Assembly: GCF_026410285.1 (NCBI RefSeq)
Contig: NZ_JAPMLP010000007.1
Location: forward strand, 1 to 64,000
Source: Sulfitobacter sp. F26169L
Lineage (GTDB): Bacteria; Pseudomonadota; Alphaproteobacteria; Rhodobacterales; Rhodobacteraceae
Reading direction: 5' to 3'
Length of the DNA: 64,000 bases
The notes beneath the pieces were generated by a model. The model saw only the letters and a list, made by a program, of their open reading frames with translations. It had not been told where the DNA came from and searched no databases. Below, in pieces: positions 53,039-56,515 of the stretch. Each line of letters starts with the position of its first letter. Position 1 is the stretch's first letter. Position numbers and translations under genes: made by a program.

Positions 53039-53041
53039 GTG

Positions 53042-54136
53042 ATGTCGCGCGCGCGCAAAACAGGCAATATCGTCTCCGGTGTCGGGCATTTTGTCCTCAT
53101 CGGCTGGATTCTGTTTGGCGGGGTGTTCACGTCGCGCCCCGATCCTGTCGAGGTGCAAGAGGTCGCGATGATCTCGGGTGAGGAGTTTCAGGCTATGGTG
53201 GATGCGTCGCGCCAGCCGGTAGAAGTGGCAGAGACACCAACACCTGCCGCGCCGGAAGTGACAGAAGACGCGCCTGAAGTGGATGCGGCGCCGGAAGAGC
53301 CTGCTGCCGCCCCGATCCCCGAAGTTGCAGAGCCCGCGGAGGAACCTGTTGAAGAGGTTGCGCCCGAAGTGTCGCAGGCAGCGCCCGAACTGCCGCAGCC
53401 ACCTGCCGAAGTGACTGTTGAGGATGCGCCGGTGGAGGAAACACCTGTCGAGCGCCCGGCAGAGGTGGTTGCGCCGGAGCCTGCACCGCGCCCCGAACCC
53501 GAAACAGTTCAGGAACCGACACCGCAAGAAGCAGTGGTTCCCGAGGAAACGGGCGAGACAGTAGAGCAACCGCAAGAAGCCGCTGAAACGCCCGAAGCAA
53601 CCGACCGGATTGTAACCGAGGCGGCCCAGCCCCCTGCATCGGCTCCCAACGCGTCAATGCGCCCACCCGCGCGCCGCCCGTCGGCGCCGCGTCCGACACA
53701 AACCACACAGGCGCCCGCTACGCCTTCTCAGGAAGAAAGCACTGTGGACGATGCGGCGGTACAGGCCGCACTTGAGGCGGCGCTGAGTTCTGCGGCAACA
53801 GACGTGCCGACAGGGCCGCCGATGTCATCGGGCGAAAAGGATGCGCTGCGGTTGGCGGTGCAAAACTGCTGGAACGTTGATCCCGGTGCGCGCTGGGCGC
53901 AAACGACCGTGACCATCGCCATGAGCATGACCCAGGATGGCAAGGTTGTGTCCTCGTCGCTGCGCATGATTGCCAGCGAAGGCGGTGATGCCTCTACCGC
54001 CAATGCTGCGTTTGGCGCGGCGCGCAGGGCGATTTTGCTCTGTCAGAAAGAGGGCTATCCGCTGCCGCAGGAAAAATACGGCCAGTGGAAAGAAATCGAG
54101 ATGACATTCAACCCCGAGAGGATGCGGATAAGATGA
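53042..54136 (+). CDS. tolA: Cell envelope protein TolA
   Basis: A 364-residue protein with the TolA architecture: a short cytoplasmic end and one membrane helix (VSGVGHFVLIGWILFGGVFT), then a long Pro/Glu/Ala/Val-rich linker about residues 50-235. The C-terminal domain has a cysteine pair (QNCWNVDPGARW ... LLCQKEGYPLPQEKYGQW) and ends [10 protein letters not shown]. TolA links the TolQR motor to Pal in the outer membrane. The linker is acidic and proline-rich, unlike the Ala/Lys-rich helix of E. coli TolA. The stop overlaps the next ATG by four bases. Confidence 0.92.
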   Translation: MSRARKTGNIVSGVGHFVLIGWILFGGVFTSRPDPVEVQEVAMISGEEFQAMVDASRQPVEVAETPTPAAPEVTEDAPEVDAAPEEPAAAPIPEVAEPAEEPVEEVAPEVSQAAPELPQPPAEVTVEDAPVEETPVERPAEVVAPEPAPRPEPETVQEPTPQEAVVPEETGETVEQPQEAAETPEATDRIVTEAAQPPASAPNASMRPPARRPSAPRPTQTTQAPATPSQEESTVDDAAVQAALEAALSSAATDVPTGPPMSSGEKDALRLAVQNCWNVDPGARWAQTTVTIAMSMTQDGKVVSSSLRMIASEGGDASTANAAFGAARRAILLCQKEGYPLPQEKYGQWKEIEMTFNPERMRIR

Positions 54137-54597
54137 GGGGTGTGGTTTGCCTGTTGGGTATGGCGTGTTGCGGCACAGCTGCAGGTGCCGACAATGCTAT
54201 GCGCCCCAAGGAAAGGCCGCTGGTGCAGGACGAGGTCGTACAGCTTGTGCAGGTAATGTCGCCGGTATTGCCAAAGGCCGCATCAGACGCGTCGCTGAAT
54301 GATGCACAAAAGGCGACATTGCTTGGCGAGATCGTTGCATGCTGGTCGGTGCCCAAAGGTGCGCCGCAAGTGAAGCTTGGTTTCTCGCTGGACAGAAGCG
54401 GAAAGCCGAAGACGGGTTCAATCCGCGAGATTTCCCATGTTGGAGGGGCGAAAACGGCTGTTCAGTCGGCGTTTGCTGCTGCAAAACGGGCGGTTTTGCG
54501 CTGTGGGAGAGATGGATACACTCTCCCCGTTGAGAAATACCAACAATGGCGGGATATTGAACTGACGTTCAACCCTGAAAGGACGAGTTTACGATGA
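54133..54597 (+). CDS. Exported duplicate of the TolA C-terminal domain
   Basis: A 154-residue protein with an apparent signal peptide ([20 protein letters not shown]) and a domain clearly homologous to the C terminus of TolA encoded just before. Shared features are the cysteine pair ([11 protein letters not shown] ... [12 protein letters not shown]), the [17 protein letters not shown] block and the same order of strands. It lacks the membrane anchor and the Pro-rich linker, so it should be free in the periplasm. It overlaps both tolA and tolB by four bases, so it is made with them. Its role is unknown; it may bind Pal, TolB or the divisome in competition with TolA. Confidence 0.85.
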
Positions 54598-55916
54598 AGT
54601 TTTTGAGCATCTTTGCAGCGCTGATCTGTGCGCTCGGTCTTGCAACCGCTGTCAGCGCGCAGCAGGGGCCGCTTCGCATTACCATCGAGGAAGGCATCAT
54701 TCAGCCGCTTCCTTTTGCAGTCCCCGATTTTCAAGCTGAAACAGGCGAGGCGGGCCAGCTGGCCGGTGATCTGGCGCGGGTAATTGCCGCGGATTTGCAA
54801 GGCACCGGTGTTTTCAGGGAAATTCCCAACTCGGCCTATATCGCGCAATATGATGATTTCAACGCGCCGGTTTCCTTTCCCGACTGGAAAGCAATCAACG
54901 CGCAGGCGCTGGTGACGGGCGCCGTGTCGGTGTCTGGCAACAATGTGAATGTAAAGTTCCGCGTTTATGACGTGGTATCGGGCACCAATCTGGGTGAGGG
55001 GCTGCAATTTTCCGGCACCACCGACGGCTGGCGGCGCATGGCGCATAAGGTTGCGGATGAGGTTTATTCGCGCATCACCGGCGAGGGCGGGTATTTTGAC
55101 AGCCGCGTTGTGTATGTCTCTGAAACCGGCCCCAAGGATGACCGTAAAAAGCGTCTGGCAATCATGGATTATGACGGTGCGAATGTCAGCTATCTGACCG
55201 ACAGCAACGCGATTGTATTGGCGCCGCGGTTCTCACCATCGGGCGACCGCGTGCTTTATACCAGCTACGAAAGCGGATTTCCGCGCATTTACGTTCTTGA
55301 TATCGGCTCGGTACAGCAGCGGGTGCTGGAAAGCGCGGAAGGCACGATGAGCTTTGCGCCGCGTTTCTCGCCCTCCGGCAACACGGTTGTGTTTTCGATC
55401 AGCCAGGGCGGGAACACGGATATCTATTCGATGGATATCGGATCGGGGCAATCGGTGCGTCTGACCAACACGCCAGCGATCGAAACCGCACCCAGCTACA
55501 ACCCCGATGGTAGCCAGATCGTTTTTGAAAGTGACCGTTCCGGCACGCCGCAGCTCTATATCATGTCCGCTTCGGGTGGTGAGGCACGGCGCATTTCCTT
55601 TGGTGAGGGGCGGTACGGCACGCCTGTCTGGTCGCCGCGCGGTGATCTTGTGGCCTTTACCAAGCAACACGCAGGGCGGTTCCATATCGGTGTGATGCGC
55701 ACCGATGGATCAGAAGAGCGTTTGCTGACCGCGTCGTTTCTGGATGAGGGTCCGACATGGTCGCCCAATGGCCGTGTGATCATGTTCACGCGCGAAACGC
55801 AGGGCGAAGGCGGCGCATCTTCGCTGTACTCCGTTGACATCACAGGCCGCGTTTTGCGGCAGGTAAACACACCCGAAGGCGGATCAGACCCCAGTTGGTC
55901 ACCGCTTCAGCAGTAA
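54594..55916 (+). CDS. tolB: Tol-Pal periplasmic protein TolB
   Basis: A 440-residue protein with a signal peptide ([20 protein letters not shown], cleaved near AQQ), an N-terminal alpha/beta domain, and a six-bladed beta-propeller of repeats such as [34 protein letters not shown] and [18 protein letters not shown]. TolB binds Pal and controls its link to peptidoglycan. It overlaps the upstream gene by four bases. Confidence 0.97.
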
Positions 55917-55987
55917 TCCTTTCCCCGTTGTGCCCCCTTGTGCTAGCTTGGGGAAACAATAAAAAATCTTAAGCGAGATCGAGACAG

Positions 55988-56515
55988 ATGAAATTCCTAC
56001 CCATGAGCCTTCTGGTGGCGGCCGTTGCGCTGTCTGCCTGTACCAATCCAAACCGTTTCGGCAATGATGATGCCCTCAGCACCCCTGCCAATCCGGCGGG
56101 AACCGCAGGGTTAAACGGCATCGTTCCGGGCAGTGCGAATGATCCCACCTCAACGGCCTATTTCAACCAGACCGTCGGGGACCGCGTCTTGTTCCTGATT
56201 GACCAGTCAACGCTGACGGCCGAAGGGCGCAGCACGCTGGACGGTCAGGCTGGCTGGCTGATGACAAACTCCGATTATCAGGCGATCATCGAGGGCCACG
56301 CGGACGAGCAGGGCACGCGCGAATACAACCTTGCCCTTGGTGCGCGCCGCGCAAATGCCGTGCGTGAATATCTGCTGTCCAAAGGCGTGCCTGCATCCCG
56401 CCTGCGGGTTGTCAGCTATGGTAAGGAACGCCCGATCGAGATTTGCTCGAACGAGGCATGTTATGCCAAAAACCGCCGCGCGGTCACTGTGCTGGCCGGT
56501 GGTCAAACAAGCTAA
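55988..56515 (+). CDS. pal: Peptidoglycan-associated lipoprotein Pal
   Basis: A 175-residue lipoprotein: the lipobox is ALSAC with Cys18 as acylation site. An OmpA-like peptidoglycan-binding domain follows, seen in DRVLFLIDQSTLTAEGRSTL, IEGHADEQGTREYNLALGAR and VVSYGKERPI. It anchors the outer membrane to the cell wall and is pulled by TolQRAB during division. A 71-base gap before the gene may hold a separate promoter. Confidence 0.97.
   Translation: MKFLPMSLLVAAVALSACTNPNRFGNDDALSTPANPAGTAGLNGIVPGSANDPTSTAYFNQTVGDRVLFLIDQSTLTAEGRSTLDGQAGWLMTNSDYQAIIEGHADEQGTREYNLALGARRANAVREYLLSKGVPASRLRVVSYGKERPIEICSNEACYAKNRRAVTVLAGGQTS

Follow-up and report, generated by a model that had tools for sequence, protein, structure and literature searches.

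A free TolA domain III gene overlapping tolA and tolB in Sulfitobacter, and the open reading frames that appear to outlast it

Results

An additional gene in the tol operon

The stretch of DNA analysed here (64,000 nucleotides of Sulfitobacter sp. F26169L; hereafter the window) carries genes in the order tolQ, tolR, tolA, a 154-codon open reading frame (ORF), tolB and pal. The tolQ and tolR ORFs that precede tolA match MotA_ExbB and ExbD. The 154-codon ORF, referred to below as the free copy and its product as the free protein, is laid out with its neighbours as follows.

53039..54136, + strand: tolA, 365 codons from a GTG, with an ATG at 53042; encodes the anchor, a proline-rich linker and domain III
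54133..54597, + strand: free TolA domain III gene, an open ORF of 154 codons plus stop
54133..54136, + strand: ATGA, shared by the tolA stop and the start of the free copy
54133..54189, + strand: probable signal peptide, residues 1-19, with cleavage inferred after AGA from sequence and hydropathy
54295..54582, + strand: domain III fold, approximately residues 55-150, from predicted structure and fold matches
54340..54342, + strand: codon of C70, one half of a presumed disulfide; the Cys is invariant in 42 sequences
54502..54504, + strand: codon of C124, presumed disulfide partner of C70; the Cys is invariant in 42 sequences
54523..54528, + strand: CTCCCC, 71 nt upstream of the tolB start
54553..54570, + strand: last strand, residues 141-146 (DIELTF), from alignment, predicted structure and fold matches
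54577..54582, + strand: GAAAGG, likely ribosome-binding site of tolB, within the final codons of the free copy
54594..54597, + strand: ATGA, shared by the stop of the free copy and the tolB start
54594..55916, + strand: tolB (TIGR02800, E 1.4e-132, 442.6 bits against a cut-off of 343.15)
55988..56515, + strand: pal (TIGR02802, 137.6 bits against a cut-off of 125.35)

The four-base overlap with both neighbours that a first-pass annotation of this DNA had described is thus present as ATGA at each end, the stop-start overlap by which translationally coupled gene pairs are recognised. In all 12 tandem copies read from this and other genomes, the start overlaps the tolA stop by 4 or 1 nt. The GC content of the free copy by codon position (0.61, 0.49 and 0.58) is gene-like, weakly so.

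The free protein carries a TolA domain III without domain II and probably without anchor

Searched against its own genome, the free protein matches the C-terminal end of TolA (E 6.0e-22, with 40% identity across query residues 26-154) and, at E 1, nothing else beyond itself. This agrees with the first-pass annotation, which had taken the ORF for a copy of TolA domain III on the strength of a shared cysteine pair, a QW(K/R)(E/D)IE(M/L)TFNPER block and a common order of strands. The pair (C70, C124) and a 12-residue form of the block are both present in the free protein, and an alignment of 42 free and TolA domains together with two predicted structures bears out the common features. C70, W71, C124, W139, F146 and P148 are invariant across that alignment, and F146 and P148 of the last strand are invariant in all 11 free copies. 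Helices are predicted at residues 57-68, 107-124 and 133-139 and strands at 79-86, 98-103 and 141-146, in a model whose residues 1-50 are of low confidence (pLDDT 54-61). A separate prediction for domain III of TolA from the same genome has the same order of elements plus two extra short helices.

Fold comparison leads to the same family. The best solved match found by Foldseek was the TolA domain III chain 2x9a_B (E 2.2e-3, with none reaching 1e-3), and VIA Z values were 11.4 (2x9a_B), 10.1 (1tol), 10.0 (1lr0) and 9.7 (6s3w), all of them TolA domain III; among these top matches are complexes of the domain, 6s3w containing a TolB peptide and 2x9a containing phage g3p. The TonB C-terminal domain (TIGR01352, PF13103), which has a related fold, stands lower in the structure list (Z at most 8.1), and the free protein of the window matches no sequence model of that family. 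Because a sequence-profile search of the PDB returned no TolA chain, only one spurious match at E 0.55, the link to solved TolA structures is one of fold rather than of sequence. A Pfam scan of 11 members of the free-copy group gave nothing relevant, and the TolA model TIGR02794 scored 13.1 bits on the free protein, below its cut-off of 59.45. The free protein of the window matched no Pfam model. The window's own TolA fared no better with these models, having no TIGR02794 match at E 1, and this family is therefore poorly modelled.

Compared with full-length TolA, the free protein has the domain III fold but not the long domain II that spans the periplasm, the presumed cleavage site and the domain being separated by only about 35 residues. 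Fold, cysteine pair, F-x-P last strand and operon are shared with known examples (TIGR02794; 2x9a, 1tol, 1lr0, 6s3w), whereas domain II and probably also the inner-membrane anchor with its motor contact are missing and the domain has a gene to itself.

The first-pass annotation had a signal peptide in place of the anchor and linker. The linker is indeed absent; an export signal in place of the anchor is probable, as judged by eye and hydropathy. The N-terminal 21 residues resemble a signal peptide, with a hydrophobic stretch followed by A-G-A that we read as cleavable; the protein is probably exported and left unanchored in the periplasm. No clear lipobox is visible by eye. We also considered that this signal had been borrowed from tolB at a duplication breakpoint, but the two N-termini look unlike each other by eye.

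The gene is patchily distributed and often lost

A survey of tolA-tolB gaps in relatives, which the first-pass annotation had suggested, finds that the gene recurs but is patchy, and mostly absent or decayed. ORFs in the same position occur in three other Sulfitobacter genomes, seven genomes of other genera and Jannaschia pagri, where the free copy begins directly after the tolA stop; the nearest named relatives with the gene are Sulfitobacter isolates and MAGs. A family-wide search of 295 genomes, sampled at close to one per genus, found matches in 272 of them, in most cases to TolA proper. Among the 20 other genomes with at least two matches, which were the ones inspected, seven have an ORF of 118-236 codons directly after tolA (G133, G063, G032, G025, G144, G284 and G002). 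Intact tandem copies are present in at least eight of the 295 genomes including that of the window, a count that diverged copies below threshold would escape. Plasmid-borne relatives were not found at E 1e-5. Taking an ORF after tolA, an export-like N-terminus and a domain III without domain II as the definition of a paralogue group, the window and 10 of the 11 other tandem copies belong to it; the N-terminus of G144 is ambiguous, and G120 is left out. Between its tolA and tolB, the latter genome has another full TolA-like ORF (L122:4997-6352), which is 452 codons long and encodes a hydrophobic stretch near the N-terminus.

The usual state is to have no insert. The tolA-tolB spacing is at most 60 nt in 101 of 109 loci (a set in which some genomes appear twice) and at most 20 nt in 53 of 64 further loci; in the latter survey, several gaps from outside the genus probably reflect a mis-called start of tolB, since they contain ORFs in frame with it. 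Within the genus, TolA was found in 59 of 62 genomes and the junction read in 58 (G342 ends at a contig edge); adding G212, which bears a different genus label but falls inside the clade, gives 59 clade junctions. Four of these hold an intact copy (G000, the window genome, with G309, G348 and G336), 29 hold a stretch of 112-244 nt and 26 are gapless. We refer to the 29 stretches as remnants and to the frames within them as bridges.

In a tree of TolB, TolR, TolQ and FtsH, the nine closest genomes including the window's comprise three with intact copies and six with remnants, the window's sister G334 having a remnant only. If regain is excluded, and on a topology read without node supports, this requires at least five losses. 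The first-pass annotation had made its proposal depend on a fold match and on the state of the gene in close relatives: the fold match is there, and of the eight nearest relatives two have the gene intact (G309, G348) and six have it decayed (G311, G212, G347, G334, G328 and G349). The outcome is mixed, the gene being neither missing from every close relative nor kept as a rule.

These patterns bear on whether the free domain is a fourth, stoichiometric subunit, partnering TolB or TolA in a stable complex and, for example, readying the TolB N-terminus. ATGA overlaps are over-represented in genes that encode subunits of heteromeric complexes (PMC10666635, in part), and five genomes encode, elsewhere, other proteins in which an export-like N-terminus is joined to a C-terminal domain III. 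Against such a role, however, the gene has been lost repeatedly while the other genes of the operon show no visible change, and since close spacing is the common tolA-tolB state, the overlap needs no special cause. We consider a fourth subunit improbable. The five proteins just mentioned (L123 in G271, L125 in G076, L127 in G199, L129 in G313 and L130 in G327) are approximately 224-329 aa long, lie away from tolB and have an N-terminal part of unknown nature; three of them were scanned and gave no Pfam match above cut-off, and one of 198 family genomes (G076) has a counterpart of the N-terminal part of the G313 protein.

Intact copies are loosely constrained

Full-length frames of 154 codons are present in G000 and G309, with 152 alignable codons. 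For the three pairs among G000, G309 and G348, maximum-likelihood omega of the free copy was 0.060, 0.250 and 0.106, and an omega of 1 was rejected in each (2dlnL 57.4, 27.1 and 35.1); for the pair G348-G336 the best value was near 0.15. Counting by NG86 gave 0.196, 0.252 and 0.294 in the three computable pairs of six, the first two from the G000/G309/G348 trio, in which one pair was too saturated. These values are rough, because dS of the free copy is saturated (1.4 to 7.5), and they are pairwise among relatives rather than specific to the tip branch of the window genome. TolA domain III in the same G000/G309/G348 pairs has an omega of 0.017-0.030, and dN by counting in these genomes is 0.46-0.57 for the free copy versus 0.036-0.061 for TolA domain III. 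Intact Sulfitobacter free copies are therefore under loose purifying selection and change approximately tenfold faster than the domain III of TolA.

On a tree of 77 domains most free copies group together; there are four label changes, of which starred branches force at least two, and the branches are long, so that it would be unsafe to choose between one duplication and several. A recent duplication was rejected given that the free copy is only 40% identical to the TolA domain of its own genome; those of other genera either are old or arose independently.

Rapid divergence and repeated loss are also what an arms race would produce if the free domain were a decoy that soaks up phage minor coat proteins or bacteriocins gripping TolA domain III, thereby shielding TolA. 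Phage g3p and colicin N do bind TolA domain III where TolB binds it (PMC4339652, in part), and both the tenfold difference in rate and the patchy distribution fit. Omega, however, shows no sign of exceeding 1 (0.06-0.29 across pairs), a PADLOC scan of four proteins returned no match and so a known defence family is rejected, and this analysis identified no phage or bacteriocin that uses Tol in this bacterial family. A decoy is in our judgement unlikely.

Remnants keep an open frame while the encoded peptide drifts

Compared with a profile built on the final 62 residues of intact copies, 16 of 28 remnants scored at least 10 bits and above all 200 of their own shuffles, which kept single-base composition only (G351 was left out of the scoring). 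Remnants of G316, G333 and G326 also exceeded all shuffles, at lower scores, and nine did not; for G331, G305, G318, G302, G308 and G312 at least 10 of 200 shuffles score as well, and these may not derive from the gene.

The frame that runs on from the tolA stop is mostly open. Across the 29 remnants it contains 6 stops in 1,339 codons, compared with 46 and 60 in the other two frames (1,317 codons each) and 54 expected from base composition. It is open throughout in 24 of 29 remnants versus 6 and 5 for the alternatives. Stop counts are not independent across related genomes, but with one genome per clade the frame is still open in 15-16 of 18 clades, as grouped by hand from the TolB/TolR/TolQ/FtsH tree with G351, which lies outside that tree, as its own group. 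With the starts that our script chose, the frame shares 4 nt with the tolA stop in 26 of 29 remnants, and its end lies -5 to +4 nt from the tolB start in 24 of 29. Frames fall short of tolB in G349 (by 53 nt), G328 (47), G345 (31) and G316 (14), and in G302 the open frame continues into tolB; the recent remnants of G328 and G349 contain in-frame stops. Shuffles of 28 remnants that preserved dinucleotides and both gap ends gave 10.2 spanning frames on average and at most 17 in 500 trials, as against 24 observed. Gap length is 1 modulo 3 in 22 of 29 remnants, as two ATGA overlaps demand. As a control, the first 66 nt after tolB and before pal in the same 28 genomes have 23, 38 and 24 stops in the three frames, without depletion.

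The encoded peptide has no such constancy. In nine sister pairs pN (0.07-0.45) and pS (0.08-0.53) of the bridges are alike, while tolB pN in the same pairs is 0.003-0.033. A joint likelihood fit over five independent sister pairs (174 codons, kappa fixed at 2.5, first 2 and last 10 codons omitted) is best at an omega of 1.0-1.2; a value of 0.5 is 4.1 lnL units worse and one of 2.0 is 2.4 worse. The frame of the remnants is thus kept and its peptide drifts neutrally. Beyond what the first-pass annotation described, then, the gene is patchy and fast-evolving and, in relatives, erodes to a short frame seemingly kept for translation alone. Outside the Sulfitobacter clade we noted two bridge-like ORFs with ATGA at both ends, of 63 codons (L220, G208) and 47 codons (L236, G186).

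These observations raise the question of whether the window's own gene is already a relic, an intact ORF whose protein no longer matters there and which is on its way to becoming a bridge that serves coupling only. The frequency of decay speaks for this: remnants occupy 29 of 59 junctions including that of the sister G334, and the nine close genomes imply at least five losses under the same exclusion of regain. Set against it are the full-length frames of G000 and G309, with an omega well below 1, unlike the bridges, and, weakly, a gene-like codon-position GC. We regard a relic in the window genome as rather unlikely, although not far-fetched.

Likely start signals of tolB lie within the insert

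AAAGG is found within 30 nt upstream of tolB in 26 of 28 remnants and in all four intact loci. In none of these 32 genomes does it occur in the last 30 nt of tolA, compared with 14 of 23 gapless genomes. Where there is an insert, this likely ribosome-binding site thus nearly always lies in it and not at the end of tolA, so that the start signals of tolB sit in the adjacent copy.

The bridges also conserve individual nucleotides. Of the 28 remnants (the L065-L114 set), 18 have [CT]TCCCC 69 to 71 nt before tolB, with other nucleotides at fixed spacing, and in 18 clade representatives further nucleotides are conserved at fixed distances, including TTCCCC approximately 50 nt before the ribosome-binding site. 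Bridges would accordingly be under some other constraint too. The key positions were picked on the bridges themselves, and the independent comparison is with tolA ends only, for which 14 of the 23 gapless genomes and 18 of the 32 others could be scored. Two explanations for these nucleotides were discarded: the reported CenR motif is TGA-N8-TGA (PMC9275681, in part), which rejects TTCCCC as a CenR site, and a conserved RNA hairpin had an RNAalifold energy of -6.2 against a column-shuffle mean of -0.9 (sd 1.3), yet 1 of 100 shuffles was lower and the stems have only 2-4 pairs.

Separately, we observed that [CT]TCCCC may be a promoter or regulator site. In G032, G025, G284, G002 and Jannaschia pagri (L117, L118, L120, L121 and L139) a spacer of approximately 100-180 nt between the free copy and tolB holds TTCCC. 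Upstream of pal (55917-55987 in the window) many clade genomes have TTCCC and, after it, TGTGNTA, which may be a pal promoter; of 55 genomes scored, 12 have [CT]TCCCC itself there.

Discussion

The identity of the domain, its position, the constraint on intact copies and the open frame around neutral amino acids are computed results. From these we infer export of the protein, its binding to TolB, a damping role, and coupling as the cause of the open frame. The account that we prefer combines the two: an exported free domain III competes for TolB, is accessory to the Tol machine and, once lost, erodes into coupling bridges. We regard this joint reading as plausible, if still short of probable.

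The gene would be an old partial copy of tolA comprising domain III alone, translated in relay with tolA and tolB through the two ATGA overlaps. In E. coli, TolB, colicin N and phage g3p all bind TolA domain III by strand addition on its last strand, with weak demands on sequence (PMC4339652, in part). The exposed last strand of the free protein would most likely bind the TolB N-terminus as that of TolA does, and since the free protein keeps the strand that TolB binds, TolB is a better-founded partner than Pal, the other candidate of the first-pass annotation, by analogy with the E. coli complex (PMC4339652, in part). An untethered domain has no way to transmit the force of TolQR, so that it would compete with TolA and in this way damp or buffer the engagement of TolA with TolB.

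A man-made precedent exists in E. coli, where secreted TolAIII is co-expressed to release periplasmic protein (PMC6195910, in part), and by analogy a free domain III can disturb the envelope. That construct, a signal sequence plus domain III that makes cells leak (cited in PMC6195910, in part), is also a free periplasmic domain III, but it is a laboratory product made at high level, whereas the free copy is a natural operon gene presumably expressed at or below the level of TolA. The harm that high levels of periplasmic TolAIII do to E. coli argues for a natural protein that either is weak or has another role. Counting against our main reading is the rarity of the intact gene (4 of 59 clade junctions).

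The gene would be accessory and often lost by its lineages, and its position may explain what loss leaves behind. The tolQRAB genes of Rb. sphaeroides form one transcription unit (PMC9275681, in part), termination-reinitiation coupling is nearly lost at gaps of approximately 20 nt (PMC10666635, in part), and untranslated RNA invites Rho (PMC12548453, in part). Because the gene lies inside a coupled operon and holds the ribosome-binding site of tolB, its loss would rarely leave untranslated RNA; instead, the lost gene's frame would shrink to a short bridge that carries ribosomes from tolA to tolB. An eroding gene between the two would endanger tolB unless it were translated, which would explain open frames that encode neutral peptides. 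The principle of a ribosome-delivering ORF has precedent: short upstream ORFs and mycobacterial MIRU elements are, like the bridges, translated and coupled to the next gene, with a peptide thought to be irrelevant (PMC12548453, in part). Unlike these, the Sulfitobacter bridges occupy the site of a full domain gene in relatives, from which at least 16 of 28 derive, and what the present analysis adds is the series from constrained domain to bridge. In the open-access literature searched we recognised no description of a natural free domain III, of a gene intervening between tolA and tolB, or of comparable bridges, and we saw no mention of such a gene in a study of TolA/TonB evolution (PMC12204202, in part).

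Taken across the genus, the gene would exist in three states: absent, a constrained free domain III, or a frame that selection keeps for translation only while its peptide drifts. The intact protein would be a competitor of TolA for TolB, or a decoy for phages and bacteriocins that use TolA, and the remnant a ribosome bridge that guards tolB from uncoupling or Rho-dependent polarity. We lean, by a modest amount, towards this view being correct. Natural genes for a free domain III coupled to tolA and tolB suggest that some bacteria tune or shield their Tol machine. The remnants, for their part, form a natural series of an uncommon kind, with the reading frame retained and its protein not, and through them one can test directly what an untranslated gap between tolA and tolB costs.
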